Below, in pieces: positions 8,693 through 55,448 of a stretch of 64,000 nucleotides of DNA. The DNA lies in contig ML996703.1 of NCBI GenBank assembly GCA_010356995.1, positions 434,001-498,000 of the forward strand. Reading direction: 5' to 3'. Every line of letters starts with the position of its first letter. Within the stretch, counting starts at the first letter, position 1. The notes below the pieces were generated by a model. That model had not been told where the DNA came from. It saw only the letters and a list, made by a program, of their open reading frames with translations, and ran no database searches. The DNA is from Trichodelitschia bisporula (taxonomy: Eukaryota; Ascomycota; Dothideomycetes; Phaeotrichales; Phaeotrichaceae). The position numbers and the translations under genes are program-made.

Positions 8693-10662
8693 GCGTTTGA
8701 GCGATGCCAGTATGAGCTCCATAGGGATCGAGTTGGCTTGTGAATATATTTTTGGATCGATCCTAACATGTGCTTCTGGCTTAAGTCTAGGTGAGGTTCC
8801 TGCCTGTTCTGAGTGTGATCGTGGTGGAGAGTAAATTACAGCTCGGGCAAAGCCCCGGAGCAAACAACGCGTTGGAGTGCCAACTGAGACCTTCCGTTCG
8901 ATGCCTGATGATCGTTATGACGACGGCTATCAAAAGGATTGGCAAGATGAAGGGTTTTCAGAATCCGCAAGGCGAAGTGCCGTAAAAGTATGACCAGGAA
9001 ATGCTCTGCTGTGACCTAAACCATGCCGAAAGCAAAGGGTCTGCAACGTGCGCAAGGACGAGACCGCATAAGGATTGTGACTGAATCCAAAGCAGGTAAA
9101 CGCGTAGGTAGTCCCGTTTGTCACGGAGCTAACCGATGATGCACGCTACCCGTATTTCATGCGAAGGCCCTCAGGGATACCTTATCTCTAGTCGTCCTGA
9201 AGCAATCCGTTTAGCTGATCTTCCATGAAACGTGCGAAAATGCCTCCGGAGTACAAGTATATAATATGCTGGATCATCTTGGTGTCGATACCGGATGTCA
9301 TTCAACGTACATCATCGGGTCGGGCCTAAGGTTATTCTGAAGCCGGGTGCTAAAGCATTTAGCGCGATGCCAAGGCGGCCAGGATCAAGGGCGCTCGGGC
9401 CCCCGATCACCGCCAGCCTTTCAGCCTTGACCTCCACTTCACTTCTTCAGAGCATCTTCTCCACCCCATCCATTGAAGCGATCCACTGATTTATAAAGCG
9501 TATACTTATGGCAGTCTATAACCTCTTTCTCAATATATCCTGCCGCCAGCTGGAGGTCTACAGCGTCACCATCGGCAAATACAGCGCTCCCCATACGACC
9601 CATCTCTTCCCATCCAGCTCCTCCAGAATTCTGCCGTCACAGCCGTGGACATTGACATCAGTACCGCTGCCCCTTCTACTTCTTCCACCGTCAACAACAC
9701 TCTTATCATGTTCACAGCAACTACTCCTTAGTCCCTCATTGGGCAACTTGACTCAAGAGAAAGAGTTTCGCAAGGTAAGTCTAATTGACGCATTGAGACA
9801 TCTGGCATTTTGTTCTAACGGCTAAATCTAGGCGAATATTGCCACATGGGTAATACGCTGCCCGGTTTCGGTTGGCACCGTCGCCGCCGGCGCATTTTAT
9901 TTTTCTCGCGAACTTAGGTCCGTGAGGTGTCAGGGCGCAACGGTAGCAGCGATGTCGTAACCAAATATAGCGACGAGCTCACGGCGTGGACATCCTCTTG
10001 CAAAACGGTCGGTTTATAGCCAACAAGTCCGCCGGAATACTCTCCGTCACATATATATCGATATCGGTGCTTTGGCACACCTCCACGTTATACTGTGGAA
10101 TGGCCATTAAACTAGTGCGTTAAACATCATGGCTTCCATAGCTACCGCAAAGCGCGCTAATCGCCGTGCTCGTCACTCCGCCGTTCGTCAGGCTGTGGCG
10201 CGTTGCATCTTCCAGCATGCTCTCGCTGAAAGAAGGTACGTACATATAGATTTATGTTAGCATCGATGAATACATCGCGACTATTTTCTTAAGTCATACC
10301 TATCCGAAGATACTGCATGTGCTGTCACACGAATCCATTCACAAGGGCACTGTACCGTCACTCATTTCGTCTTCAACCTGTTTTACGGCAGGTTCTGGAA
10401 ACGGGCGCATCCTCTTGCTTGCAACTCAACTCTGAGTTTTTGTTGTGGCTCGTACATGTTGTCCCAATTTGTCTGGTGCGCTTTCATCCCGTATACTATC
10501 AAGTCTCGGACTCTCCTCTATGAGATTTTCCCGACTTAAGCTGACAGTGCGGTAGCAAACAACGACTCTCATATACACTTCCTGTAGCCGCACACTTACT
10601 GCTTCTCCATCCAACCCCATACTTCTACTATCCGACTCCGCTTGCTCCGCAGCACCACCATC
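8693..10662. other. Long intergenic region
   Basis: Nearly 2 kb without a well-supported gene. Intron-like GT...AG pairs occur (for example a GTAAGT at 9775 with a CTAAAT-TCTAG at about 9824-9832), suggesting transcribed sequence, but no reading frame across them looks like a conserved protein. One weak spliced candidate at 10129-10435 is listed separately. Confidence 0.4.
10129..10435 (+). CDS. Weak candidate: short spliced basic peptide
   Basis: An ATG at 10129 in good context opens a 35-codon Arg/Ala-rich frame that meets a GTACGT donor at 10236. Splicing to the TTAAG acceptor at 10291-10293 continues in phase to a TGA at 10433-10435, giving 82 aa. Nothing in the product matches a family I know. 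It could equally be part of the 5' leader of the gene starting at 10663. Confidence 0.15.
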
Positions 10663-12885: not shown

Positions 12886-15092
12886 TCAATGTTGCTTCTC
12901 CCGCTGGCTTGCTTTGTCATCACTCCCCTTTCTCCCCTTCTGACTCGAAGGCCGGCGCAAGTCCGCGATGGAGATGGGAGGCTTCTCCTTCCTTACCTTT
13001 TGATCGTCCGAGCTCATCTTCCGCAACTCCTTCTCCAGAGTCATCCCCATCCGTTCAAGCAGCCACTCCGCCTCATTCTTCCGACCCATGAGCGGACTCC
13101 GCGTCCCAAGCCAGCTCCACTTCAAATTTTTCGACTCTTCGTCCCCATCCGCCTGTCCCAGATACTCCGAGCGCTTCTGGGTGGAGTCATTATGCACCTC
13201 TCCTGGGGCCGTCCGGTGCAGATCTGGCTTCGCTTCGTCCTGTCCGATGAGCTTCAGAAACCAGGCCCACTCGCTATACGAGTACTTCTTGGGCGGGCGG
13301 GCGTGTATGTCCTTTGCAAGGGTTCTCTGCTCCCGTGCCAGCACATAGTGGTAGAGGTGGATATCACGCTCCAGCGTGTCTCCTCGGTCGCTCGCTTCCT
13401 GAGCGCCGATGAGTTCGTCGATTTCAACCAGTCCAGCCAGACGGTCTAGAGCGTGTTGATGCACGCTGTCATGGCTCTCGTCCTCGGTGCTCTTCGAGGC
13501 ATTCGCCATGAAGCCTGGCGGCTTCTGCACCTCGATGTCACCGTCAGTGGCGGCGTTTTTGGAAAAGCCGTGAAGTGTCGCTTTGAAACGGGACCGAAAT
13601 CCACTTTCATCGGGCAAGATCGTGAGGCTGCCTGCCCAAATGATGAAATTCTCAAATGCTTTGATGACAGTTTCTCCCATGTTTGAGATGAGGACGGTGA
13701 GCGTTGGGACTGCAAGGAGGGACCAGAAGACGAACATGGGCTTGCCAGAGTTCGACATCGGGTATAAGTCGCCGTAGCCGATTGTCAGTAGCGAGGTGTA
13801 CGCAAAGTAGAGAGCTTGAAAATACGACCAGCCCTGCTTTTGCTCTGTCACCCAAAAGATAGCAGCTCCCACCAGCCATAGGCTCATGGCTGCAATACCA
13901 GACCATGTGAGAGCATACCAGCGGCGTTTCTGCATGGCGTAGTCCTGGATCTTGCGCATGGCCAGAAACTCCTGCTCTCGGCGCCGTATCTCGGACAGGT
14001 TGTGCTGCGGGAAGGTGTGTGTGTGAAACCAGCCGATCTTGATTGTTCCCTTGTCATGTTTGATGGATCTAAGAGCCTCCTCCCGTTTCTTCTCCATAAG
14101 GCGCGCCTCCATCTTGTTTTTGCCACGGTCGAGCACCAACGCGCGTATGGAACCGATGACCAAGCCGACGGAAACGATGCCACAGATCGCAAAGGGAAAC
14201 AACAGGGAGCGTCCAAGGTGCGTCTTCGGGGAAAAGTCGGAACCGAGCCCCACAGTCAGAAGCGTAACGTCGGCCCAATACAGGGCATCCAAATACTTCC
14301 ACCCCTCAACAAACTTGAAAACGCAGGCGCCAAGCAGGAGGTACATCAAAAGCATGATGGTTTGCAGCATCAGGGTGCGTTGGCTAACGGTCAACCGAAA
14401 TTCTCTACCGTAATGGCCTTTGTAAGTGCCATAGACGGTGATGACGAGGAGGAAGGAGACGACACAGTAGAGTACCGCAGCGAAGATGGCGTAGTAGTAG
14501 GCTTGAGTAAGGGTATACTTCTCACGAGGATAAAGCCGAAGCGCCGGGCTGTTCCCCGCAACAACAAGCGCGATCAAGAGGGCTGAGCTGAGCAACCATC
14601 CGCCGATCGTAATCGTGTGAGCTATGGCAAAGGGCAAGCGGCGGGCCATCTTCAGCAAGAGAGCCAGATTCGCCGCCAGCGAGAAGAAGAGTGACAGCGC
14701 GTTGATTGCAATTACCCTGGATTTGCTGTCAGTACAAACCGCGACAGAGAATACTCACTAACCATCCTGGGTCCTTAACCGGTTCTCCATGGTTTTCGCT
14801 ACTCCCTTCAGGAATGGAAGCCCTCCATGGCTCTACCAATGCGCATATGCTGAAGGCGTTGGCCATTGGACCGAATGTACCGGCGATCAGGGGACAAGCT
14901 GTGGATGCAAACCACCACCGGCTGTAAGCAGTTAGCACTGGCGCATTAGCTGTAAATGATATCGGCGCCGTAACTTGGGTCAAGGAAGTCCTGTTCAGCC
15001 TCTTCCTCATGTTCCTCTCCAGGCTTGTATGGATCCTTCTCGAGATCCTCTGCGAGCTTGTGGACAGGCGCGTCCACCCCAGGGTCGTTCAT
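12886..15092 (-). CDS. TOK1: TOK1-type outward-rectifier potassium channel
   Basis: Exons 15092..14975, 14937..14763 and 14716..12886 give 707 aa. TOK channels carry eight membrane segments and two pore loops and release K+ across the plasma membrane on depolarisation. Both selectivity filters are visible: TVGLG (about residue 250) and TIGYGD (about 408), each followed by a hydrophobic helix. The N-terminus is acidic and cytosolic; after the last helix comes a long hydrophilic tail with basic and acidic runs. The intron between exons 2 and 3 (GTTAGT donor) is secure. The first intron is less sure: only a 37-nt intron keeps the frame, while the better-looking acceptor at about 14922 would not. 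The junction inside residues 39-45 may therefore be wrong. Confidence 0.93.
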
Positions 15093-16673: not shown

Positions 16674-18583
<1,910 letters not shown>

Positions 18584-19087
18584 ACGAGCACTCGTCTCTC
18601 AGCCTCAGGATAGCACTCTCACGACAGCAGCTTCTATGATGCCTTACCTCTACTTTGACATATGTCTTTAGTTTCGGGAACTTGCCGCTAGATAGTTTCC
18701 ATTGGCAATGACAGAAACTGAAGCATACATTATGAGTGAATTGTAATGATCTGTTTGGCCTCTTCTAGTCTTTCAAAGCTAAGGCCGTTCGCTGTTCCAG
18801 CGTGATGGAAGGGACCCACGACGAAGCTTTGCCGGTGCCTCACTTCAAACGTCAATTCTCTTGCACTGCTTCCATGTCATTTACACCCCTATAAAGGTCT
18901 ATCGTGCTTCATCGGTGGACGCTCTGACAAGGCAGGTACCACTTGACGTCGTCGCCTTCTCCAGTGACGCTACCTAACTGGTCCGGCCCCGCGCTCCGGC
19001 ATCGGAAGCCATTATACCCAACCTTGCCGAGCTTCTCCCTACTTCCATCCCCAACCCACAGTGCTCAAGGTCCAAAAAAGAAGAAAC
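18584..19087. other. Intergenic region downstream of the helicase gene
   Basis: About 500 bp holding the helicase 3' UTR and the sequence beyond the tRNA terminator. No gene is seen. Confidence 0.5.
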
Positions 19088-19097
19088 AAAAAAAAAA
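19088..19097 (-). terminator. RNA polymerase III terminator (T10)
   Basis: Ten consecutive T residues on the minus strand begin four bases after the tRNA discriminator base. This is a strong Pol III stop and supports a real Pol III transcription unit. Confidence 0.9.
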
Positions 19098-19116
19098 TAT
19101 TGAGAGGAGAGGGGTT

Positions 19117-19174
19117 CTAACAGAGGATGTTAGTATGAGTTTTTGAGGCTCAGAAGATTTCGGTGTAAACTAAC
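19117..19174 (-). other. T-loop insertion with spliceosomal intron signals (58 nt)
   Basis: It sits between G57 and A58 of the tRNA. It begins GTTAGT, carries a perfect TACTAAC branch site eleven bases before its end, and ends in TAG. Length and signals match the mRNA introns of neighbouring genes. Its removal restores the loop TTCGAAC and the B-box sequence GGTTCGAACCC. Confidence 0.85.
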
Positions 19175-19200
19175 CGAACCCTCGCTCTTTCGAACTGCGG

Positions 19201-19214
19201 ATTTGGGCAAGAAG
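19201..19214 (-). other. Ordinary tRNA intron next to the anticodon (14 nt)
   Basis: It lies between positions 37 and 38, the normal place for nuclear tRNA introns cut by the tRNA splicing endonuclease. It contains a CCCAAAT stretch able to pair roughly with the anticodon region, as such introns often do. The exact 3' edge could shift by one base. Confidence 0.8.
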
Positions 19215-19233
19215 CCTAAACACAGCGCCTTAA

Positions 19234-19288
19234 CTGGGAATGGGGGTTAGCGGGGTACAGGGGGCGATTGTTGGAGACAACTGCTTAC
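19234..19288 (-). other. D-loop insertion with spliceosomal intron signals (55 nt)
   Basis: It sits directly after G18-G19 of the D loop. It starts GTAAGC, has a CGCTAAC branch site about 11 bases before its end, and ends CCCAG. Removal joins GAGTGG to TTAAGG, the usual Leu D-loop sequence. Confidence 0.85.
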
Positions 19289-19299
19289 CCACTCGGCCA
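19288..19299 (-). promoter_or_regulatory. Pol III A box of the tRNA gene
   Basis: The A-box consensus (T-R-G-Y-N-N-A-R-N-N-G-G) is matched by TGGCCGAGTGGG. It remains intact because the first intron starts exactly at its end. The B box, in contrast, is split by the T-loop insertion (19175-19180 and 19112-19116). Confidence 0.75.
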
Positions 19300-19306
19300 T
19301 CCTCCC

Positions 19307-19815
19307 AGTGAAGGGTTGATGCCGAAGTTGCAGGGTTTAAAAAATATAACCCCCTGTTGCACTAGATGGAGGGCCGCACGGGAAGGCTTGATGGTTTTGG
19401 CCGTAGATACGTTGTGCAATAGCGACAGAAACTGCCGAAAGGAGCCATCGCAGGTGTGGACTGGCTATCCAGCGGATGCGGGCAGGTGAGAGCGGTGATC
19501 GTGCTCCTGGTCCGGCATCACATCAGGCAGGTCGTCACCCGCACATCCCACCCTTCCCACAAAACACAACAGCCCTACAGTAGCCTGCCATCGTCCCTCC
19601 CGTCAAACGCGGATGGCACCTGCCACCAAACGCAGATGGCACCCGCCACCAGTTTGTTCGGGCCAAGTGCGCAACAGCCAGCCTCGCGGCTACCCGCAGG
19701 ATATCGCTTGTATTGATATAGACCGCCCACGGCGGGCCACGTCACGTCTAGACAACGTGCATATCGACATTGCCAGAGCATTATCTCGTATTTTGCTACT
19801 GCTAGTACTGCTACT
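19307..19815. other. Intergenic region between tRNA and AA5 oxidase gene
   Basis: About 500 bp with no gene seen. A small AT-looped inverted repeat (CAGGGTTT ... AACCCCCTG) lies near 19331-19356. A duplicated phrase (GATGGCACC with GCCACC) near 19611-19645 is a short direct repeat. Confidence 0.45.
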
Positions 19816-28014: not shown

Positions 28015-28311
28015 GAGTTCGACAGGCTCGGCAAGCTCGACAGACTCGGCAAGCGCAGCAAGTTTGACAGACTCAACGAGCTCGACAAGCTCGACAGACT
28101 CAACAAACTCAACAAACTCAACAAACTCAACCAACTCAACAAACTCAACAACCTGGACGAGTTTCACGAGTTCGACCAGTTCAATCAGCTCGAGCAGTCC
28201 GGATAGTTCAATGAGCTCCACAAGTTCATCAAGTTTGGCACCTTCGACAAGCTCGGCAAATTCATCAATCTCATCAATCTCATCAAGCATGATAAGCTCG
28301 ACAAGCTCAAG
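28015..28311. repeat. Degenerate minisatellite with 9-bp period
   Basis: About 300 bp built of related 9-mers such as AACTCAACA, GACAAGCTC and GACAGGCTC, most regular at 28090-28150. Because the period is a multiple of three, reading frames on both strands stay largely open: one reads Ser-Thr-Asn triplets, another xxLeu triplets. It may be the Ser/Thr-rich 3' end of the preceding secreted-protein gene. Confidence 0.8.
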
Positions 28312-30723: not shown

Positions 30724-33700
30724 ATGGCGCTGTACGGACCGTCCCGAAATGTGGACATGAACAAGTGAGGGCTTACACCCCCGGGTTTGATGATCGTCCA
30801 GGTTCCGCTGGCTAACGTCGGCTTCAGACAAGAATCTGAGCTTGCCATCAACATCCGCAAAGCTACGAGCATTGGTATGGCCGTCGTCCCCTAGAATTGC
30901 CGCTGAGGCTTGCTAACGCCCGGTCCCGCAGACGAGACCGCACCCAAACGTACGTCGACGGAGCACCACCACCACCACGAGGAAACTGACCGCGACAGGC
31001 AAGCATGTGCGGGCTTGCATCGTCTACACATGGGACCATAAGTCATCCCAGTCCTTCTGGGCTGGCATGAAGGTGTACGTTCATGTGTGGTCGCCTGGGG
31101 CTAGGCTTACCATATAACCAGGCAGCCAATCTTGGCCGACGAAGTCCAGACGTTCAAGGCCCTCATCACCATCCATAAAGTGCTGCAAGAAGGTCATCCT
31201 ATCGTGCTGAAGGAGGCCCAGTCAAATGTGGGATGGTTGGAGAGCTTGCGGCGGGGCGTGGCCGGTGCAGGCGAGGGCGTTCGAGGTGGGCAGCACGGAT
31301 AAAATAGTACAGTCGCTGGCAATTCTGACACGCACAGGCTACGGCAAGCTGATAGAGGAGTACATCTACTTCCTCCGCGCGAAGCTCGCCTTCCACCGGC
31401 AGCACCCCGAGTTCAACGGTAGGTGATATCGCCTGCTCCTGTGCTTGCTGACTCCGCAGGCACCTTCGAGTACGAGGAATACATTAGCTTGAAGAGCATC
31501 AATGACCCCAACGAAGGGTAGGCGGTATTGTCTACTGCGAGGCCTAGCTAACAACCGCAGCTACGAGACGATCTCCGACCTGATGACCCTCCAGGACCAA
31601 ATAGACTCCTTCCAAAAGCTGATTTTCGCTCACATTCCCCACTCCTCCCACAGCGAATGTCGCATATCCGCGCTCGTGCCGCTCGTACAGGAGAGCTACG
31701 GCATCTACAAGTTCATCACGAGCATGCTCCGTGCGATGCACACGACCCTGGGCGACGACGAGGCTCTAGCCCCGCTGCGGGGGCGCTACGACATGCAGCA
31801 CTACCGTCTGATCAAGTTCTATTACGAGTGTAGTCAACTGCGCTACCTCACCAGTTTGATCACGGTTCCGAAGCTGCCGCAGGATCCTCCGAACCTGCTG
31901 TCCGAGGATGAAGACCGGCCGTCGCTTCCGTCCCGCCCTGCGAAGGAAATCGAGAAGCCTCCGTCGCCTCCGCGCGCGCCTTCGGTGGACCCCGAGCCGA
32001 TCAACGAGTTTTGGAAGAATCAGCAGGCCCGCGAGCAGGACGCGTTCGCCGAGGAGCAGCGGAGACTCCAGGAACAGTGGGAGGCGGCGCGGCGGATGCA
32101 AGAAGAGCAGTCTATGAAGGCACAGCGCGACTTTGAAGAGCAACAACGCCTCCAGGCCGAGCAGCAGCGCATGGCTCAGGAGCAGCTTGCCCGCGAGCAA
32201 CTGCAACAACAAACCTTCGGCCGCATGGCGGACCTCGAGCGGGAAAACCTGAACGCTCGTGCCCAGTATGAGCGTGACCAGCTCATGCTCGAGCAGTACG
32301 ACCGGCGGATGAAGGCGCTGGAGACAGAGCTGGCGCAGCTAAGCGCAAACTACGCGCAGCAGAATTCGTCCAAGGACGATCAGATTCGCGCGCTGCAAGA
32401 GCAGCTCAATACATGGCGTAGCAAGTATGAAGCCCTGGCGAAGCTCTACGGCCAGCTGCGGACAGAGCATCTGGACTTGCTGCAGAAGTACAAGACCGCG
32501 CAGGCGAAGGCGGCGTCAGCGCAAGAGGCGATCGACCAGCGCGAGAGGCTGCAGCGCGATCTGAAACAAAAGAACCTAGACCTCGCGAACATGATTCGCG
32601 AGCGGGACCGTGCACTTCTTGACAAGGACCGGTCGACGGGATCGTCGAAAGAGGAGATCGAGAAGCTCAAGCGCGAGCTCCGCTTCGCTTTGGAGAAGGC
32701 TGAGAATGCCGAGCGCGCAAAGGGTGCAGAGCTGTCGGCGCTGCTCAACCGCCACAATCGTGAAGTTGCGGACCTGGAAGAGACGTTGCGGCAAAAGATG
32801 AACGCACTGGGTGAGATGCAGTCCCAGTACCGGGACCAGGATTCGGATCTTCTGCGCCAGCTGAGGGAGAAGGAAGACGAGTTGGACGTGTTCAAGGCGG
32901 GCATGGACCAGACGCTCATCGAACTCAACGACCTGCGGCAGCAGCATGAGGCCAATGACCAAGCCATTGATGGACAAATTGATACCGTGATCCTGGATAA
33001 CATCCGCAAGATCAACGCTATCATCGACTCGGTGCTGCAAAGTGGCGTGTCCCGCGTCGACGACGCCATCTACGAACTAGACTCGTCCATGCAGGCTGGC
33101 AACCAGAGCGCGTCCGGTGCATACGTGCTATCGCAGATTGAGAAAGCGGCGCAAAACGCCATGGACTTCTCGACGGCCTTCCGCGAGTTCATCGCCGACG
33201 GCCCGAACAGCGCGCACTCGGAAATCATCCGTACCGTCAATTTGTTCTCTGGCTCCATTGCCGACGTGCTGAGCAATACCAAGGGTCTGACGCGCTTTGC
33301 GTCGGATGACCGCAAGGCCGACCAGCTGGTGAATACGGCGCGCAAGTCGGCGCAGTCGGTCATCAAGTTCTTCCGCGACTTGCAGTCGTTCCGGTTGGCA
33401 TCACTCGAGGACGATCAGAAGCAAGACGTCATTATCCACAACAACGGCGACGTGCAGCTCAATCTGCAGAATCTGTCCAAGCTGGCAGATGCCTTCGCAC
33501 CGAAGTCCAAGATTACGAACCAGGCGGGTGACCTGGGTGACCTGGTTGACCGTGAGATGACTAATGCCGCCGCGGTCATTGATGCCGCTGTCGAGCGGCT
33601 GAATCAACTCATGAAGAAGCCCAAGGACCACTACTCGACATACGAGCTGCGGATTCATGAGTAAGACTCTTAACACCCTTTTTTTAGCGTCGCTAACGTT

Positions 33701-34663: not shown

Positions 34664-36109
34664 TTAAACAATCTCATCACGCCCTAATAACGCCGCCATT
34701 GGATCCGCCGCATTCGTTCGCTTTCTCCGATACTCCTCCATGTCCTCCTCTGTGACCCCGTTGCGCATCTCGTCTAGGGTACGCTTCCGCCGCTCCGTAT
34801 CAGCTTCCACGTCGCGCTTGCGCGGTTTCTCCTTCGCGGGCGGTGGGCCCATAGCCCCCTCATCCCGCCATGCAATCGCTTTGGGCTCTTCCTCGGGTTC
34901 CGCGCCCTCCAGCGCCGCAGCAGTCTTCATCCGGGCCGCCTCGTCAAACGCATGCCTGCCCTCCTCGCCCGTACAGTAGCTATTTCGCACCGTAGAGTGG
35001 CAGCACGCGTATCCCCAGACAAAATCCTTCCACCAACTGCCCCACACAGCCGTGTGATTGTGCAGCAGCACGTCCTCGGGGTACTTGCTCTTCGGCACCG
35101 GCTTAGGCGCGCCCTTAACCAGCCCACGCTCATCGTACTCGACGTACCGCTCCGACTCCACGACGATCGCATCCTTAGCCGGCTTCGCGAGGTGCTCCTG
35201 GCCACCGTATTTAGCAAGCAAGGCCGCCTTCTGCGCCTCGCGCTTCTCAGACCGCACAGCCAGGTCCTTTTTCCGCGAGAGCTCGCCGCTGGTGGGGTTG
35301 GCTTGGAGATGTAGTTTCTCGCTGCCGCCGCGCTCCTGCGTCTCCCACGCATACCGCTGTGCCTTATCGAACTCCGCCGCGTCGCCGGAGCGCCGCACAA
35401 AGTCTTCCTCGGCCACCAGCCGCGCCGCCTCGTCCGCCACGGCGCCCGCGTCCGCCATGCTGCGCGTCTTGGGGTCGTATTTTGCGCTCTCCAGGTCCAG
35501 GTTCAGCAGGTACTTGGCGGTGTCTTCGCGAAGGCGCAGGGCGCGGGCCGAGGACTGTGTGCGGCCCATGGTGGCTTCCTCCTCGTAGCGATCACCGTCG
35601 GCCTCCTTGTTGCGCTTATCCGGGTCGTCGTTATCGTCTTCGCCCAGCGCTTTGGCACGCTCGCGCTTCAGCGCCTCCAGCTCGTTGTACTCCTGCACCA
35701 CGCCCTCGTATTCCGCGGGATCGTATCCGTTCCACCGGTCGCGCTTCGCGTCCCAGCCCAGTTGAACGTCCTGCACAATCTCGTCGGCTTGGATGTCCTT
35801 GCCCGTCCATTTGGCGCCGAGTTTGCGTGGTCGTGAGAGGCATTCTTTCGCTTTGTGGGTCATGGCGCCGCAGTTCGTGCAGGCGCCTTTGCGGAACTTG
35901 GTTGCGGCGGGGCCACGCTTGGCGCCGCGGTCGTACCATGTTTGGGAGGAGGTGGAGTGGGTTTGCTGGAGACGTTGATGCTCGAGGTAGTCGGCGGAGT
36001 CGGGACCTGAGTCTGGGACGTAGAAGGGCTTTTGCGCGATGAAGGCGGGGATGTATTCGTTGCGGTCCTTCGGGGTTGCGTCGGGTTTACGGGGCGGTGG
36101 GGGTCCCAT
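34664..36109 (-). CDS. SLU7: Pre-mRNA splicing factor SLU7
   Basis: One exon, 481 aa. Slu7 acts in the second catalytic step of splicing, helping select the 3' splice site. The CCHC zinc knuckle [14 protein letters not shown] (Cys77, Cys80, His85, Cys90) is intact. It is followed by the conserved [11 protein letters not shown] and [13 protein letters not shown] segments and, near residue 360, [16 protein letters not shown]. The C-terminus is basic and Glu-rich. The start at 36109 (MGPPPPRKP) was preferred because the upstream in-frame sequence to 36208 is low-complexity and contains an acceptor-like CTCACAG just before it, perhaps a 5'-UTR intron end. The protein is nuclear. It converges with SLA2 and is divergent from REV3. 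Confidence 0.95.
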
Positions 36110-36437
36110 GATGGGTTGTCCTGTGAGAGTGGATGGGCGTGAGGGTGGGTTTGGGATGGTTGATGGTGTGTGGTGATGCGGAGACGCGGAGGTGATGTCG
36201 TGCACCACTGTATGAAGAATGTGTGGCGCGTGAGTGGCTGATGAACCCCGGAACTAAAGAAGGCGCATCACGTCCCAGCCTTTAGGGAATGGAATACGAG
36301 GGACGCGTTTATTGTTCATTGCAAGGTTACGACTCCGGACGACCGCGTTTTGGATTTCCCATTAGCACTGCCTAACCTCTGAAAGCAATGCAGTCCATCT
36401 CCCCAGACCACGAAATCGACTGCGCATCATTGCCGTG
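36110..36437. promoter_or_regulatory. Shared upstream region of SLU7 and REV3
   Basis: 328 bp between divergent start codons, so it should contain both promoters. No classic TATA box stands out. Confidence 0.5.
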
Positions 36438-39400
36438 ATGGCAGAAACGCCTCTCCCGCAGCCATTCCGCTTCCGGCTCAACTGCGTCGACAGTTACCAG
36501 ACCTCGCCAACCCCGTTTGATCCCGAGATCCAGGCGAGTCGGGGCCTGACGCAGAAGTACAAGCCTCCGGTGCCGATTATACGCGTGTTCGGCGCGACGG
36601 AAACGGGGCAGAAGGTTTGCGCCCATATTCATGGCGCATTTCCATACGTCTATGTCCGCTACGAGGGCGGACTGGGCGACAGTGAAGGTGAGATACACAT
36701 AGAAATCGTCGACGGTAGCTCATATATGCGCAGTGCGCACCTACATCCAAAAGCTGCGTCTTTCCATCAACCAGGCCTTGACTGTCGCATTCCGGCGAAA
36801 CGACTACAACACAAGCACGGGCTCCTTCGTAGCGCACATCTCACTCGTGAAAGGCGTGCCATTCTTCGGTTACCATGTCGGCTACCAATTCTTCTTCAAA
36901 GTCTACCTGTACAACCCATCCCACACGACCCGTCTCGCCGACTTGCTTCTCCAAGGTGCCATCCTCGCCCGTCCGTTTCAGCCCTTTGAAAGCCACCTAC
37001 AGTTCGTCCCGCAATGGATGATCGACTACAATCTCTTCGGCTGCGACTATATCAAATGCGCAAAGGTGCGCTTCCGTGGCCCTCTACCCGACCAGGAGAC
37101 CCTTTCAACCCCGCACCACAAATGGCACAGCGGTACGGTGGACCCCTGGCGCATATCCGACAATAATGGCGCCTTCGCGCGGCAAAGTCTCTGCGAGCTA
37201 GAGGTCGACATATGCTTGTCAGACATTCTGAACCGGCATGAGCTGGCGCAGCGGCATCTGCACCAGGACTTCGACGAGCGGTTCCGAGTGCTGGGCGCGG
37301 ACGAGAAGTTTGTGCATTCAATGGCTCAGCTGTGGCGCGATGAGGTTCGGCGTAGACAGCGGAAGATGGGGGGGGTAGAGCCGAGGAGCAGCAGTAGCAT
37401 GTTTCCGCCTGAGATGCTGGTTAACATGAGTGCGGAAGCGAGAGCAGAGTCAGGAGGTTGGATTCATGAGGAGGAATATCGCGAGATGCTTGAGGGACTG
37501 ATGGAGGATGAGAGAAGAGAGGCGGATGTGGACTTCGATGGTTTCTTCGAGAAAGTTCCCGGTGAGGAAGGCGTTCAAACAGCATTCGAGAGTGTAGAGG
37601 ACTTGTATCCCGAGCGCCTGGCGCGAGAGCTCGCTGAAGCGGATTTGATGACGGATGAGCCGGATGAGGAATTGGTTCATGTGGAGCAGGTGCCGCTCGA
37701 GCCGCCCGAGGATGATGGATACCATTCCAAGGAAGAAGAGGAAGAGCACGTGGAAGAGAAGGGAGTTGGAGATGAAGATGAAGATGAAGCCGATGACACC
37801 AAAGATGAGCCGAGCGAAACCCATGAATCGAATGCCGATGTCGCCACAAGCAGACGCACACCCAGAACCTTGAAGCGGGCCTTTACTCGGGACGAGATTA
37901 TGCAAGAAGTGGCCACGATCAAGAAGCGAAGGCTTTTCCAGTCGCCCTCTTTCAACGTCGACACCAGCCTCTCCAGCGGCTTGGGCTCGGCTCAGGAGAC
38001 GCCTCGACGGGTCACCTTCCAGCTTTCCGGATCGCAGGAAGACGACGGCCCCCCCATTTCGAGCCAGTTATCGCAGACCAGTATCAAGGCAGGTGGAAGC
38101 AAGGACTCTAAACTTCAGGGATTTTCCGTTGTTAAGAACCCGACCGACTCTGAGTCCGATTTTCGACTCAGCCAAAGCGATGGCAAGGCTACGCCGAAGA
38201 CTCTTCATTCTCGAAAATCATGTTTCAAGGACGCTTCTTCTCCTGTCACTCCGCTAACTGCTCGATCACTGCAGATCACTCAAAATCCCCTGAAAGGCCC
38301 CGTTTCATCTCAGCTGGTTAAGGCCATCTCTCAGATTCCTGTTGCCTTTAGTACCTCATCGAAAATGTACTGCTTTGGCCAGCTTCCTCCTTCCACTGAA
38401 GAAATCACGGATACCTTGTTAGATTATGGCATTCCACCTGTTATTCATCAGGACGCATACTACAGCAATGAGCAGGATGTCCCCGATCGGGCCCGAGAGT
38501 ACGCCGGTCGAGAGTTCCGGCTAGAAAGCAACACTGTCCCCTTTCTTCCCGACTTCGATCCAACAGGCACGTCGCCTGCAACAATGGGCATGAAACCTGG
38601 GGTCGTGAGAGACAAGGTCAAGGAGGAGTTATTCTACAGCCATAAACGCGAAAGGTGCACGCTGCGGAACTGGGAAATTGCTGCCGCGCCCCCTACCTCT
38701 GCAGAGGTCGCGGCGTGGCTTGCCGAAGAGAAGGAGAGCAAGGTGGAAAAGAAAAAGCAAATGCCCAATGTTCAGCCTGCTCTGTCGCAAATCGATGGTC
38801 CGACACAGAGCAAAGGCGGTGCGAAGTTCTCGCAGAAGCAGAAGTCGAGCAGCGTGCAGCACGAGGTCCAGTACATGAGCGACATGAGTTTGGAAGTCCA
38901 CGTCAACACGCGAGACGACCTGGTCCCTGACCCTGCCCACGACGAGATTTCATGCGTCTTCTGGAGCGTCCAGGCAGGGGGCGCGGAGGAAAAGTATCAG
39001 TCGGGAATAGTAGCGCTTTCGACTCGGGACGGTATTGCCCAACTCATCGCCCGGCAAACCGCCGTAAAGGTCGACGCTGAGGAGAATGAGCTGGATCTAT
39101 TAAATCGGATGGTCGACATCGTCCACGAGCATGACCCTGACATCCTAACCGGGTACGAGGTGCACAACTCCTCGTGGGGCTACCTGATAGAGCGCGCGCG
39201 TCTCAAGTACGAGCTCAACATCTGCAACGAGTTCTCCCGCATGAAATCCCATTCGTTTGGCCGGTACGGCAAGGACTCAGACAGCTGGGGCTTCAACAAG
39301 ACATCCACGATCCACGTCACGGGTCGCCATGTCATCAACATATGGCGTGCAATGCGGGCCGAGCTGAATTTGCTACAGTACACTGTCGAAAATGTCGCGT

Positions 39401-41349
39401 TCCATCTACTCCACAAGCGCATCCCGCACTACCCCTTTTCCGACCTCACGCGCTGGTATCAGAGCGATGTTCCACATCACCTTCACAAAACAATAAAATA
39501 CTTCCTGTCCCGTGTCAAGCTGAACCTACAAATCCTCGAGGCGAATGAGCTCATCTCACGCACTTCAGAGCAGGCTCGGGTCCTCGGTGTCGACTTTTAC
39601 TCCGTCTTCTCACGCGGCTCGCAGTTCAAAGTCGAGTCGCTTATGTTCCGCATTGCCAAATCCGAAAATTTTATGCTCGTCTCGCCCAGCCGCAAGCAGG
39701 TCGCGGTGCAAAACGCCCTCGAATGCATCCCGTTGGTCATGGAGCCGCAGAGCGCATTCTACTCGTCACCGGTCGTCGTCCTCGACTTCCAGAGCCTCTA
39801 CCCCAGCGTTATGATTGCCTACAACTACTGCTACTCCACCTGCCTGGGTCGTGTAGCCACCTGGCGCGGGCAGAACAAGCTCGGGTTCGCCAACTTCCGG
39901 CGCGAACCCGGTATCCTCGAACTCATGAAAGACCACATTAACGTTGCACCGAACGGGCTAATGTACGTCCGTCCGGAAATGCGTCAAAGCCTGCTCGCAA
40001 AGATGCTGGGCGAGATTCTCGAGACGCGCGTCATGGTGAAGGCCTCGATGGCTGCGGACCGCGACGACAAGCCGCTGCAGACACTGCTCAACAATCGACA
40101 GCTGGCGCTCAAGTTCATCGCCAACGTCACCTACGGCTACACTTCTGCATCATTCTCCGGCCGCATGCCCTGCGCCGAGATCGCGGACTCGATCGTCCAG
40201 TCCGGTCGCGAGACCCTTGAAAAAGCCATCGCTCTGATCCACTCGCACCCCGCGTGGGGCGCGGAGGTCGTCTACGGCGACACCGACTCCCTCTTCGTGC
40301 ATCTCCCAGGCCGCACGCGCGACGCGGCCTTCACCATAGGCGCCGAAATCGCCGCCGCAGTCACAGCCGCCAACCCGCGCCCCATCAAGCTCAAATTCGA
40401 AAAAGTCTACCACCCCTGCGTCCTCCTAGCAAAGAAGCGCTACGTCGGCGCAAAATACGAATACCGTAATCAAGCCGAGCCAGACTTCGACGCCAAAGGC
40501 ATCGAGACAGTCCGCCGGGACGGCACACCGGCAGAGCAAAAGATCGAAGAGCGCGCGCTTAAGCTCCTATTCCGCACCGCCGACCTCAGTCAGGTGAAGA
40601 GCTATGTCCAAGCGCAGTTCAGCAAGATCATGGCCGGGCGCGTCAGCGTGCAGGACTTTGTGTTCGCGCGCGAAGTCCGGCTAGGCCGGTACTCGGACAA
40701 GGGTCCAGGGCCGGCAGGCGCGCTGATCGCGGCGCGGAAAATGGCGGCGGACGCGCGGCGTGAGCCGCAGTACGGCGAGCGAGTGCCCTACGTGGTTGTC
40801 ACAGGGGCGCCGGGTGCGCGGCTGATCGACCGATGCGTGGCGCCTGAGGTGCTCCTCCAAGGGGGCGGGATGGAGTTGGACGCGGAGTACTACATTTCAA
40901 AGAACATCATCCCGCCGTTGGAGCGGATTTTCAATCTCGTCGGCGCTAATGTGCGCCAGTGGTATGATGAGATGCCCCGGGTGCAGCGCGTGAGAGCCTC
41001 TGGTAGCTTAGGAAAAACGCTTGAGGCGTATATGATGTCTACTGCGTGTGTGGTTTGTCGCACCAGGCTGCCGCAGGGCAGTTCTGGGGCGTTGTGTACC
41101 GCGTGTGCGGGCCGCCCGGCAGCGGCGTTGTTTGCGCTTAGGACGCGGATGGGAAAGGCGGAGAAGCGGGTTCGGGAAGTGGAGGAAGTGTGTCGGAGTT
41201 GCACCGGGTCAGAGTTTGGGGAGGAGTCGAAGTGTGATAGTGGGGATTGTCCGGTCTCTTATTCGCGAGTGAAGGAGAAGGCTGGGTTAAGGGCGTTGCG
41301 GGATAAGGTTGGGGGTGTGGTTCAGGAACTGGAGGGGTTGGAATGGTGA
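36438..41349 (+). CDS. REV3: DNA polymerase zeta catalytic subunit REV3
   Basis: Exons 36438-36687 and 36734-41349 give 1621 aa. Rev3 is the B-family polymerase that extends past DNA lesions in error-prone translesion synthesis, working with Rev7. The N-terminal domain (FFGYHVGYQFFFKVYLYNP) is followed by a long acidic, Ser-rich middle region of about 400 residues. The polymerase core has motif A DFQSLYPSVMIAYNYCYS (about 1116), motif B KFIANVTYGYTSASF and motif C YGDTDSLFV (about 1279). Two Cys clusters close the protein: CVVCRTRLPQ...CTAC and CRSCTG...CDSGDC, the second expected to bind an iron-sulfur cluster. The ATG at 36438 follows an in-frame GTG. The second exon of 4.6 kb is one uninterrupted frame, unlike intron-rich SLA2 next door. 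Confidence 0.96.
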
Positions 41350-50186: not shown

Positions 50187-50645
50187 TGTGGTCCAGAGGG
50201 TGTGTCAATGGCGTGGTGAAAGTGGGTTGTGGGAGCTGTGGTGGTGATGTCGTGGTGCAGCGTGCAGTGAGCTGATCGCGAATTCTCGGGTGATGAATTG
50301 TCCGTCCCGCGGTAGGAAAGTGTTTATGCCTGAGGAAGCATGGCAAAAACTGCCCAGTATGATGACATAATGCAGCACTCCAAGCGCCGGGTCGAACCGT
50401 GCCAAGCCACGGTGCACATGCCCACGCGCTCAGTCGCGCCTCCCCAGGATCTTCGGCTGCCTTGCCAGGTCCGCTTCAACATCACAACTCCAATGGTCCA
50501 GCAGCCTTGTTGGGACGATACCTAGTGGAAAATTACGGCAAAGGGCAACATAATTGTCTCAACACACTTCGGCGATGATGTGATATTCACTCGCAAACGT
50601 TAATACAAACTCCACATGACCTTATGAATTTGCCCCACCGTCATC
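50187..50645. promoter_or_regulatory. Bidirectional promoter region of COX13 and APN2
   Basis: 459 bp between the divergent starts of COX13 and APN2, a conserved head-to-head arrangement in ascomycetes. No strong TATA box is seen. Confidence 0.55.
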
Positions 50646-52590
50646 ATGGGGACCCGCATAACGACGTGGAATGTGAACGGCATCAGAAACCCATTTGGGT
50701 ACCAGCCATGGCGGGATATTCGCACGTTTGAGGGCATGTTCGACATTCTTGAAGCCGATATCGTCGTCATGCAGGAGCTCAAGATTCAGCGCAAAGATCT
50801 CCGCGATGACATGGTTCTGATTCCTGGCTGGGATTGCTTCTTTAGCCTGCCGAAGTACAAGAAAGGTATGGCAAGTCTTATGATATGGACTGTAACTCAT
50901 AAATCAGGGTACTCTGGCGTGGGAATTTACACGCGTCAGACGGCATGCGCTCCCATCCGCGCTGAAGAGGGCGTTCTAGGTGTTCTCTCGCCACCGGGTA
51001 GCTCAACTGCGTACCGTGATCAACCACCGGAAAGTTGTATCGGTGGATATCCAGATCTTGAACCGCTCGCAGAACTCGACGTTGACCCGGCCTCGCTCGA
51101 TGCGGAAGGCCGTTGCGTGGTACTCGAATTTCCCGCCTTCGTGCTCTTCGGGGTGTACAGCCCGGCCAACAGCAACGGTATGCGAGACGAGTTCCGGTAT
51201 GCGTTCCTCACGGCCCTGGAGACGCGCCTCCGCAATCTAGATCGCATGGGGAAGCGGGTCGTGCTCGTGGGCGATTTGAACATCACCCGTACGGAAGAAG
51301 ATTCCGCGGCCGGGTTGCTCGATGTGAAAAAGATGGTTATGACGCATGAGGAATTCATATCGACACCAAACAGGCGACTCTTCAATCAACTGATTGAAGG
51401 CGGTGAGGTTGTCGGTGACAGAGACGGAGGCCGGGAGAACCCGATTCTATGGGATGTCTGCAGAGGATTTCACGAGGGCAGACACGGCATGTACACTCAT
51501 TGGGAGCAGAAGATTAATGCTCGCCCTGGAAACTACGGTTCGCGCATTGACTACGTGCTCGCCAGCATCAGCATGAAGTCATGGTTTTCGGAGTCAAACA
51601 TTCAAGAGGGACTGCTGGTGAGCAAATCAGGAGCTTTCTTCAGGTTCCACCACTGATTTACGCAGGGATCCGATCATTGTCCTGTTTACGCTGATTTCAA
51701 GGATATAATCCAGCTAGAGGGCAAGGAAGTTTTCTTCCGTGACCTCATGACCCCTCCAGGAACGTTTGTGGACGGACAGCTGGCCAATTCTGGCGTTACG
51801 AAGTCAATCCCAGCACTGTCTGGAAGACTGCTGCCAGAATTCGATCGCAGACAAAGTATCAAAGATATGTTCACTCGCAAAGCTGCTATCAAGGCCCCAG
51901 CGAGCTCACCACCTGAGACACGCACGGGGAGTCAGGTACCTGCCCAATTTCTAGCCTCTAGCCCGGCTTCGGCGAGCCTAGGTACAAAGCGCAAGGGAGC
52001 GCCCTCTAAAGCGACTCCGGCGCTCAAGCACACAAAGATTGTGGGCTCGAATCCGCAACATAATGCCAAAAATGGTCAGCTCTCTCTGAAAGGCTTTTTC
52101 GCCCCGAAGGTTGCATTGAGTTCAAAGACCGGAGCAACCAATGTAGAGACGGAGTGTTCCACCACCGAAGTCGGCCAGCAGCCACCCGACGCAGCCGAAT
52201 CTCAAGCCATGCAGACCGAGACAATTCTCACTGAATCCGATCGCGATGATACTGCCTCACAAAGCGAGGGTCCGCTCCTATTTCCCTCCGAGGCGGCGAA
52301 AGAGGGCTGGTCCAAATTGTTCACTAAGCGCGGCCCGCCCTTGTGTGACGGCCATGGGGAGCAATGCATCACATACACCACCAAAAAGAAAGGGCCTAAC
52401 TTTGGCCGGAGCTTCTGGATATGCCCCAGGTCAGTAATGCCTATGGACCTTCATTTTGTCCCGACTAATGCGTATCAGACCTGTTGGCCCAACAGGGACC
52501 TCTGAAGTTAGCGGCGAATGGCGTTGCAAGACTTTCATCTGGACGAGCGACTGGAACCGGGAGGGAAAAGAACTGGCGGCATCCAAGTAG
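50646..52590 (+). CDS. APN2: AP endonuclease 2 (Apn2), exonuclease III family
   Basis: Exons 50646-50865, 50908-51617, 51666-52429 and 52479-52590 give 601 aa. Apn2 cuts DNA at abasic sites and removes blocked 3' ends in base-excision repair. Catalytic-core motifs are in order: WNVNGIR (metal/DNA contact), QELK (Glu44), FGVYSPAN, GDLNITR, GSRIDYVLAS and, across the third exon boundary, SDHCPVYADF. The C-terminal half is disordered with a PCNA-type box QLSLKGFF near residue 425, then a GRF zinc finger (CDGHGEQC ... FGRSFWICPR ... WRCKTFIW). The last intron interrupts this finger. It is the gene immediately bordering the MAT idiomorph. Confidence 0.97.
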
Positions 52591-54094
52591 CCCTATCAAT
52601 TGCATGCTATGAATAACAATGACCTGTATTGTGTTTGCTTGCATCCTTGAAGTGTTTGTACTCTCTTCGGTCGGTATTTTGCTCCTCGTCTTTGACCCAC
52701 CTTTCACTCTCTCCATCCTGTCAGTCCTCGCGTTTCACATTGTCCAACTGACGGACCAAAACCCCATATATGCGCCTATGCCCTACGGATTGAAACCCGT
52801 AGTACACGGCCTCGAAGGTCCCAGTAATGGAAGGCAGGAAACTGACAGAGGACTGACGTATCCATCCATTCGCCACTCATCAGAAACTGGCGTCTTTCGA
52901 GGTGATTTCAGCGTGCGTTCAGTTACACTTGGTAAGGGTGTGTCCCATTTCTCAGAGTATTTTTTTACTACGACAGACCAACCGCGGGCAAATAATCTCC
53001 TCGTGATCAATGGAGGTAACTGGATCTAGTTTGAGATGTCTGAGCGAGGCTTGATGCCCATTGAGAACCACTTTCCCCGGTCCCTATCTTTGAGCGAGTT
53101 CAATAATAAGCTAAGGCGGCCAGCCGTTTCCGTCAATATCTTACGCCAAATGATAGGTTTTGATAAAAATGGGTGATGGTTATATGCGAGAAAGTGGCAT
53201 ATGGGGCTTCATCATTCTATTTATCCCACATATATGTTTCCAGCGCTTTTTGCTGCGCATCAAACTTCTCCGGTCATGCCAAGTGGAACGCAGGAAATTA
53301 AAATGGCTTATACACTCTAAGCGCCGAAGGAAGACTTGGATAGTTGCTGGGCTGTAGAGAATAGCAATCCTGAAGAGTTGATGTGCCACGATATGGATCG
53401 TTTATTCGGTCAAGATATCTGCTTGGCCTTGGAATTGAATTTTGTAACTGTGGACTGACATCTACTGATACCGCCGTAGGCACTTTCCCGGAATGTCCTA
53501 TTGACATACTATTGAGACTTGACATATTGAGCAAAGGCCAATGTACGGATAGACAATTCTCAGAGATTCTCTCGCCCTCTCTTCTTCCACAGTTCATACA
53601 ATTTCCTTTCGCATCGCTGGTGGCATACATGTCTGTGTGCTGATAGGAACTTTGAACTCTTGAACAACAGACGATTCTAGATTGTGAACGATATCGAAGT
53701 AAGCTAGATGGGTACAAACTAAAAGTGCCAAGAACTGTCCTTTTGTTACAGATGCTGATGGACCGGCGGCTGAGCTCCTGCCTAATTTGGCAGTCGCCAA
53801 GTCCCAAACTTCCCCCAAATGCAGCAAAGCGAGTCGCTAAATTTACCGAAATGGCCTGTGCTCACTCGCCGAATAGTTACCCTTCTTTGTTCTGTTCATC
53901 TTCCACAACCCACATCCTCTACAACACAAACCCTCACCATCCTCAGGCTTTGTCTCTACCAATCTTTGTTCCCACATTCATATACAGCAACCCATCTTTG
54001 TACCCCTCGGAATCGCATCACCAACTCCAACTTGTCAATAGGTAAAAGTGCCGCAATCGAAACCATTAATTCCGCTAACCTCTTATTAGTCGCA
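52591..54094. other. Left part of the MAT1-1 idiomorph region, no gene supported
   Basis: About 1.5 kb, visibly more AT-rich than the flanks, as is common in idiomorphs. An open frame at 52619-53029 (136 codons, hydrophobic start) and one at 53298-53807 on the minus strand (169 codons) have no family resemblance or splice support, so neither is called. No HMG-box sequence was seen. The right end carries the MAT1-1-1 leader with a 5'-UTR intron at 54042-54089 (GTAAAA donor, GCTAAC branch, TTAG). Confidence 0.5.
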
Positions 54095-55448
54095 ATGATG
54101 TCTTATCCTCTGGCTGGGACGGACAACAACGCCGCTTCTGTTGACTTTCGGGTTGCTGGGGCTCAAGATCTCTTTGAGCTCCTATCTGCAATTCTCCCCC
54201 ATGTTCCTGAATGGATCATCTTCGAAATCACTCGCGTCGCGAAGTACGGCAAGGCTGCGACCGATCTGCGGAATTTCATCGAACGCATCCTCAACCTCGC
54301 CGAAGTTCCTGTACATTGTTCCATTCTGGACCATGCCGTCGACCAGGTTTCCAATTTCAAGCGGAATTTCACATTCACTTCGACACAGAGTCGCAGCCGG
54401 GCCTTGAATGTCATTGACAGCGGTGTCACCAACTGCACCGGGATCATCAACATCACCAACAATGTCATTGAAAGCACATCCATCACTAAGGCCAAGCGCC
54501 CCGTCAACTCCTACATGGCCTTCCGCTCCTACTATCGCGTCATGTTCCGGAATCACCAGCAGCGAGACATATCCGGCTTCATGAAAGTCATGTGGGATTC
54601 TGACCCCTTCAAGGCCAAGTGGTCCATCCTAGCTAAGGCTTATTCGACCATCCGCGATGAGGTCGGCAAGACTGCGGCTCCGCTGGCTGGATTCCTTGAC
54701 AAGGTTGTGCCCCTTGTTGGTATTGTTCCTCGCAACATGTATCTGGAAACCATGGGCTGGACCATGTGCCACGACAGCAAGACACTTGCTCGCACTTTCA
54801 TTCCTAACATGGATAACTTTGATGAGATGTATCTCAAGACTGGCATGACCTCCGAGTTCGTTGTCACGTGGTACAAAGCAAAAAAGGACAACCCAGGTAA
54901 GTAGCAGTTGCAGCTTGCTTTTCTGAACGAAACTAACCCATTTCCCCCAGATGCGGTGTTCGAGCGCAAAGTGCATCATAACCCTCCGGACTTTGTCCTC
55001 TCGCCTGCTCTGCGCAAGGAAGCCAATGAGCTTGCGCGCTCAGCTGGCTTTGAAGACTTGTGGGCGTTTAATGCGGCCATGCCCCTTGCGCCCTTCAGGA
55101 ACGCCGCGATGACTGCACAGGCTGAAACCCGAGCTCGTGCCGCCAAAGAAGCTTACGTGCCTACAGAGGTAAGTTGATACACTTCCTTAGTTCTTCGCTT
55201 TCACTTACTAACTGCTCTAGGCTGAACTGAATGAGTCCTTGAAGGACTCTCTGAACAGGATGTCACCTGAGGTCATGCGCCAGGTCGATGCCATTGGAAA
55301 GCGGTTCAGCAGCCCAGAGCTTCTGGATCCCTATCCCGTGATACGGAAGCCACCAACAACTTGGATCACATGTTTGACCCGAACAGTTTTCCTTTCCTCG
55401 AGGACATCCACCAGCCCCCTTTGCGCTAAAGCTTCGAGTCCCAACTGA
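54095..55448 (+). CDS. MAT1-1-1: Mating-type protein MAT1-1-1 (alpha-box transcription factor)
   Basis: Exons 54095-54896, 54951-55168 and 55221-55448 give 415 aa. MAT1-1-1 is the master regulator of the MAT1-1 mating type; its alpha box is an HMG-related DNA-binding fold. The box spans about residues 134-192, from KRPVNSYMAFRSYY through DISGFMKVMW and DPFKAKWSILAKAYS. The usual intron in the alpha box of many ascomycetes is absent. The first exon also has a helical N-terminal domain of about 130 residues. The C-terminal end is doubtful: the in-phase frame turns into a Thr/Ser/Arg-rich tail after residue 378. The other frame from about 55340 to a TAA at 55427-55429 reads like a normal acidic tail (FDPNSFPFLED). 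One base missing from the C run at 55335-55337 would account for it. Confidence 0.93.

Follow-up and report, generated by a model that had tools for sequence, protein, structure and literature searches.

A candidate fungal tRNA-Leu(UAG) gene carrying two spliceosomal-type introns in addition to an ordinary tRNA intron

Our analysis of a 64-kb stretch of DNA, hereafter the window, makes it probable that its minus strand carries a functional nuclear tRNA-Leu(UAG) gene, from a Pezizomycotina fungus, that has acquired two spliceosomal introns, at positions 19/20 and 57/58, next to a 14-nt intron, and whose precursor would be processed by the spliceosome first and by the tRNA endonuclease afterwards. 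What can be read directly from the sequence are the exons, cloverleaf and splice signals, together with the terminator and TATA context. From 19306 to 19101 on the minus strand, exons of 18, 19, 26 and 16 nt are separated, in this order, by insertions of 55, 14 and 58 nt, and removal of the 55-nt and 58-nt insertions leaves a class II tRNA-Leu(UAG) (19101-19306, minus strand) with an ordinary 14-nt intron at 37/38. The elements of the locus, in the direction of transcription, are as follows.

19336-19348, minus strand: TATA-like element TATATTTTTTAAA, located 30-42 bases ahead of the start of the tRNA
19289-19306, minus strand: exon 1, with the acceptor 5' strand, positions 8-9, the D stem 5' strand and the D loop to G18G19
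19289-19299, minus strand: A box TGGCCGAGTGG, uninterrupted, inside exon 1
19234-19288, minus strand: intron 1, spliceosomal-type, 55 nt long, separating G19 from U20 in the D loop (19/20); GTAAGC at the start, GCTAAC followed by 12 nt to the end, CAG at the end
19215-19233, minus strand: first part of exon 2, with the remaining D arm, the anticodon stem 5' strand, U33, the anticodon UAG and G37
19201-19214, minus strand: 14-nt intron of the ordinary tRNA kind, placed by ARAGORN at the canonical position 37/38
19175-19200, minus strand: second part of exon 2, with the anticodon stem 3' strand, the variable arm (TTC GAAA GAG), the T stem 5' strand and TTCG of the T loop
19117-19174, minus strand: intron 2, spliceosomal-type, 58 nt long, separating G57 from A58 in the T loop (57/58) and splitting the B box; GTTAGT at the start, ACTAAC followed by 12 nt to the end, TAG at the end
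19101-19116, minus strand: exon 3, with the remaining T loop, the T stem 3' strand, the acceptor 3' strand and the discriminator A73
19088-19097, minus strand: T10 run, Pol III terminator-like, beginning three bases (ATA) past the discriminator

The 79-nt product bears the marks of a tRNA-Leu(UAG): a class II variable arm, the anticodon UAG, A73, U33, G18G19 and a T loop of the form TTCNANC. In a stem check that counted Watson-Crick plus GU pairs, the acceptor stem had 6+1, the D stem 3+0, the anticodon stem 4+1, the T stem 5+0 and the variable stem 2+1 pairs, and there were no mismatches in the 20 cloverleaf pairs and the 3-bp variable stem. The claim of an earlier, sequence-only reading of this DNA that every stem pairs is thus correct, though 3 of the 23 pairs are GU. 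The T loop is TTCGAAC and the anticodon loop TTTAGGC, and reading by hand places A14, G18G19, A21, U33 and A73 in the product; the discriminator A and the T10 stop behind the gene (19097-19088), also claimed earlier, are both there. The locus is intergenic, with no open reading frame of at least 150 amino acids overlapping it.

Support for the spliceosomal nature of the two longer insertions comes from their splice signals. Both start with GTNAG, end with YAG and contain an RCTAAC motif that ends 12 nt before the intron end, a combination that on both strands of the window is found in only 1 of 127,892 segments of 55 nt (intron 1 itself), in only 1 of 127,886 segments of 58 nt (intron 2 itself) and, over lengths of 50-65 nt, in 13 of 2,046,192 segments, two of which are introns 1 and 2. 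For each insertion there are two cutting registers with an identical product, and for both insertions one of these is GT-AG. GT-AG ends, an RCTRAY branch motif and a branch-acceptor distance within 6-36 nt, as in U2-type introns, are present in both; the donor of intron 2, GTTAGT, is rarer than GTAAGT. An mRNA intron of 44 nt nearby (18035-18078) has the same anatomy (GTAAGT, GCTAAC, CAG), and once it is taken out the two halves of a putative DEAD-box helicase reading become continuous with no stop, whereas an alternative donor that we tried led to stops; two candidate introns by the MAT gene, at 54897-54950 and 55169-55220, are similar in look to the tRNA insertions. The GT donors, CTAAC motifs and AG acceptors of the 55- and 58-nt insertions, and their likeness to mRNA introns nearby, are therefore borne out. 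Fungal U3 introns are described as having an RCTRAY branch consensus, a branch-acceptor range of 6-36 nt and a mean length of 92 nt (PMC5832005), and the motifs and branch distance of the tRNA insertions fit this description, with lengths of 55 and 58 nt that lie below that mean. Within the window, introns 1 and 2 have no repeats beyond themselves except for a 12-base match of intron 2 (E 0.15). Intron 2 (19117-19174) also has the same five bases, GTTAG, at both ends, and its predicted fold contains a hairpin in which CTAAC of the branch motif is paired with the GTTAG at the intron end.

In its intact form the gene was called neither by ARAGORN, whether or not introns of as much as 3,000 nt were allowed in the anticodon loop, nor by Rfam, which at gathering thresholds gave no match in the whole window and at E values up to 10 on 19000-19450 yielded nothing beyond a sub-threshold mir-412 match (E 0.44) across exon 1 and intron 1, which we take as chance. 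With both insertions out, ARAGORN called a tRNA-Leu(tag) with a 14-nt anticodon-loop intron; there was no call when intron 1 alone was removed, and when only intron 2 was taken out the result was a spurious tRNA-Trp(cca) with a 71-nt 'intron'. The earlier statement that a complete class II tRNA-Leu appears only after removal of the insertions was confirmed in its coordinates and lengths and by the need to take both out. For a chance control, we defined intron-like segments on both strands by a GTNNG donor, an AG end, a CTRAY motif and a length of 40-100 nt, removed each segment, or each pair lying 3-120 nt apart, from the window and ran ARAGORN on the result. Three of the 1,064 removals in the real window (655 single, 409 double) yielded a tRNA call, all at the tRNA-Leu locus, one as Leu(tag) and the other two as Arg(tct), for which the border of intron 1 was placed differently, and 60 dinucleotide shuffles of the window yielded none in 86,897 removals (0/48,890 single, 0/38,007 double). 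The anatomy of two mRNA-type introns plus a normal tRNA intron in a tRNA-Leu(UAG), as first proposed, thus survives the shuffle, signature and stem controls. The tRNA-Arg(UCU) reading, which has no anticodon-loop intron, was rejected on hand reading because its longer intron 1 would strip the D loop of the bases after G19; it would still need two introns to be taken out, and the main point would stand. Pattern scans for spliceosomal-type tRNA introns in the D and T loops, three of viral contigs and one of bacterial and archaeal genomes, gave no matches, which says little about fungi as the scanned collections are viral and prokaryotic by description. A second scan of bacterial and archaeal genomes gave one bacterial match (L001), taken as chance because it overlaps an open reading frame and ARAGORN is silent with or without the removal, and an uninterrupted Leu(UAG)-like gene was not found in one scan of viral contigs.

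That the locus is intergenic DNA that happens to resemble an interrupted tRNA is very unlikely, to the point of being negligible: the two Arg(tct) readings and the spurious Trp(cca) reading at the locus do indicate that ARAGORN is permissive, but none of the shuffled windows gave a call, the real window gave calls at this locus only, and T10 and TATA are rightly placed. A different question is which machine would remove the insertions. A canonical eukaryotic tRNA intron lies at 37/38 and has its base -3 paired with base 32 of the anticodon loop, and the 14-nt insertion has both properties, with U32 pairing with an A at intron base -3 (hand reading). It is conceivable that the tRNA splicing endonuclease cuts all three introns, as in red algae, nucleomorphs and archaea, and that the GT-AG ends are accidental; we regard this as improbable, with a slim chance at best. 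Ectopic introns in the D and T loops are described for Cyanidioschyzon, and many ectopic introns of the Guillardia nucleomorph are described as having no defined bulge-helix-bulge (BHB) motif (PMC3978253, PMC4090602). We scored this endonuclease motif as a 4-bp core helix between two 3-nt bulges (PMC3978253) plus a paired outer helix. For the 14-nt intron, the two same-product registers gave core/outer values of 2/4 and 3/3 of 4, but in the registers that keep the consensus tRNA the motif was found neither at intron 1 (core/outer 3/2 and 2/0 of 4) nor at intron 2 (2/1 and 3/1 of 4). Register +2 of intron 2, which gives a different product, reaches core 3 and outer 4 of 4 and would favour the endonuclease, but by hand reading it would change position 58 from A to G, it simply uses the T stem as its outer helix, and two of its core pairs are GU. 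Because of the G58 and of this use of the T stem, removal of intron 2 by the endonuclease is conceivable but is the weaker reading compared with removal by the spliceosome. Accidental GT-AG ends also fit poorly with a full splice signature that at each length occurs once per approximately 127,890 positions, and there as the intron itself. With the BHB missing from the tRNA-preserving registers and full fungal splice signals in both introns, maturation of the tRNA-Leu(UAG) precursor by the spliceosome is the best-supported reading of the sequence.

How the gene would be transcribed bears on two further explanations. The T10 run (19097-19088) is the only T-run of at least 8 on either strand of the window, with four runs of 7 elsewhere, and no minus-strand TATA other than that at 19348-19336 is followed by at least six A/T; the plus strand has one, at 9258. 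Because of this T10 and the upstream TATA, a Pol III transcript is likely, and the A box is in place as well; the earlier claim of a Pol III transcript stands in these respects but is weakened by the B box, which is split by intron 2 and in the DNA has its second half replaced, reading GGTTCGGTTAG. The best B-box-like matches in roughly 600 bases upstream and 800 downstream, including one at the border of intron 2 and exon 3 (TGTTAGAACCC), have two mismatches. The split B box could weaken Pol III transcription and, given these flanking matches, transcription may rest on the TATA and the A box, or on Pol II. It is somewhat unlikely, yet worth keeping in view, that a variant overlapping with our preferred explanation applies, in which Pol II transcribes the gene from the TATA-like box, the capped RNA is spliced and the tRNA is excised from it by RNase P and RNase Z, with T10 as a relic of a Pol III gene. 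The TATA 30-42 nt upstream and the interrupted B box would suit this variant, and Pol II transcripts are the usual substrates of the spliceosome, but the A box is intact and T10 lies directly behind the gene. Moreover, Pol III RNA can be spliced, since U6 of fission yeast has an mRNA-type intron and is made by Pol III (PMC10484740). The main rival to a working gene is a dead or dying copy, in which the gene has taken up spliceosomal-type insertions, is not expressed and leaves the supply of the cell to intact tRNA-Leu(UAG) genes elsewhere. The split B box and the possible existence of other tRNA-Leu(UAG) copies speak for it; further points against our preferred explanation are that exon 1 supplies just 18 nt of tRNA plus the leader, that intron 2 has the rarer donor and that both introns fall short of the U3 mean length. 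We nevertheless judge a dead copy unlikely because the stems are without a single mismatch and T10 and TATA are intact; the conserved loop bases are there on hand reading too, and a neutral copy would have gained two insertions with complete splice signals and yet no other lesion.

In our model of a working gene, a transcript, probably made by Pol III from this unit with its TATA, uninterrupted A box and T10, would be bound by U1 and U2, and the spliceosome would remove the 55- and 58-nt introns. The tRNA elbow is built by G18 and G19 with positions 55 and 56. Because the mRNA-type introns sit in both of the loops that build it, the elbow could not form before splicing, and the D and T loops would come together only once both spliceosomal-type introns are gone. 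RNase P and RNase Z would then process both ends. The 14-nt intron would be removed by the tRNA endonuclease, which depends on a folded tRNA body for the placement of its cuts, and Trl1-type ligation would follow. The order of spliceosome, end trimming, endonuclease and finally ligase is expected because the endonuclease is described as touching the D arm through Sen54 (PMC4090602). We therefore think it fairly likely that a nuclear tRNA is matured here by two splicing machines in a fixed order, with the spliceosome taking out the D- and T-loop introns and only the refolded product serving as a substrate of the endonuclease. By analogy with what has been proposed for fungal U6, the introns may have originated by reverse splicing into exposed loops. 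Folding energy alone gives this model no support and neither makes nor breaks the case because the minimum-energy folds predicted for the spliced 93-nt and 79-nt forms (z of -1.39 and -1.57, respectively) keep the acceptor, variable and T stems and have no D and anticodon stems; for the unspliced 206-nt form, z is -2.11 and the acceptor and T stems can form around intron 2.

The genomic context rationalizes the assignment to a filamentous-ascomycete lineage, in that the window looks like Pezizomycotina DNA from near a MAT1-1 locus. In Pezizomycotina, the MAT alpha-box gene lies near APN2-like and SLA2-like genes, and we infer the origin of the window from this same neighborhood: Pfam identifies a MAT alpha-box gene at 53786-54904 (MATalpha_HMGbox), an Exo_endo_phos domain and a GRF finger in adjoining frames at 50628-52505 that would correspond to an APN2-like gene, and an ANTH-domain gene at 31493-33664 that would correspond to an SLA2-like gene, the last two gene names being our interpretation of the domains. 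Pfam also places Slu7 at 34664-36253 and finds a multicopper oxidase and a glyoxal-oxidase-like gene in the window, and a family B polymerase at 36703-41349 has DNA polymerase zeta as its best PDB matches and is of the Rev3 type. Over this MAT1-1-like region (31493-54904), the MAT alpha-box gene has the SLA2-like and APN2-like genes both to one side of it, and between these two lie Slu7, the Rev3-type polymerase and a CIA30 gene. Elsewhere in the window, the open reading frame at 12886-14754 has two Ion_trans_2 stretches, presumably as in TOK-type potassium channels, and short tandem arrays with 9- and 27-base units are found at 28019-28151, where both strands have long open frames.

The splicing of tRNA and that of mRNA are taught as separate processes, one carried out by a protein endonuclease and a ligase and the other by the spliceosome. 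If our model is correct, the precursor of a 79-nt tRNA can undergo spliceosomal splicing twice, and a tRNA gene that needs both machines would tie translation capacity to the spliceosome. Such genes would also add a further class of targets, besides U6, U3 and rRNA, for testing how introns are gained in non-coding RNA. Because the tRNA-Leu(UAG) gene escapes ARAGORN and Rfam in the settings used here, we speculate that fungal genomes could contain a hidden class of spliceosome-interrupted tRNA genes. Some tRNAs that appear to be 'missing' from fungal annotations may likewise be interrupted genes, given that these two programs overlook the present one and that the non-canonical intron search of tRNAscan-SE 2.0 is described for archaeal candidates (PMC8450103).

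In the portions of the open-licence literature that we surveyed, we came across no tRNA gene reported to carry a spliceosomal intron, and comparisons have to be drawn with other kinds of intron and other kinds of RNA. The ectopic tRNA introns of Cyanidioschyzon, nucleomorphs and archaea resemble the present case in that extra introns lie in the D and T arms besides the one at 37/38, but they are ascribed to the tRNA splicing endonuclease, typically with a BHB, and in Guillardia they are given as 3-24 nt long (PMC3978253, PMC4090602); in the main text of one of these sources, a review of ectopic tRNA introns (PMC4090602), the string 'spliceosom' occurs 0 times. The two longer insertions in the tRNA-Leu gene, in contrast, show no BHB in the tRNA-preserving registers and have full spliceosomal signals. 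The group I intron that interrupts the anticodon loop of tRNA-Leu(UAA) in plastids and cyanobacteria is self-splicing and several hundred nucleotides long; it, too, is a tRNA-Leu intron that is not removed by the tRNA endonuclease, whereas the present insertions have 55-58 nt, GT-AG ends and a branch motif. Among structured non-coding RNAs of fungi, introns of the mRNA type are described in ascomycete rDNA and in the U2 snRNA of Rhodotorula (works cited in PMC2586383), which are not tRNA genes, and the spliceosomal introns of fungal U3 snoRNA, again not a tRNA, are longer on average (92 nt; PMC5832005). The closest parallel is fungal U6, in fission yeast and others, where an mRNA-type intron interrupts a short, structured RNA made by Pol III, and for which reverse splicing has been proposed as the origin of the intron (PMC10484740). 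However, U6 is itself a component of the spliceosome, which would ease reverse splicing into it, while a tRNA is not. Moreover, compared with U6, the tRNA-Leu gene combines two introns of the mRNA type with one of the endonuclease type.
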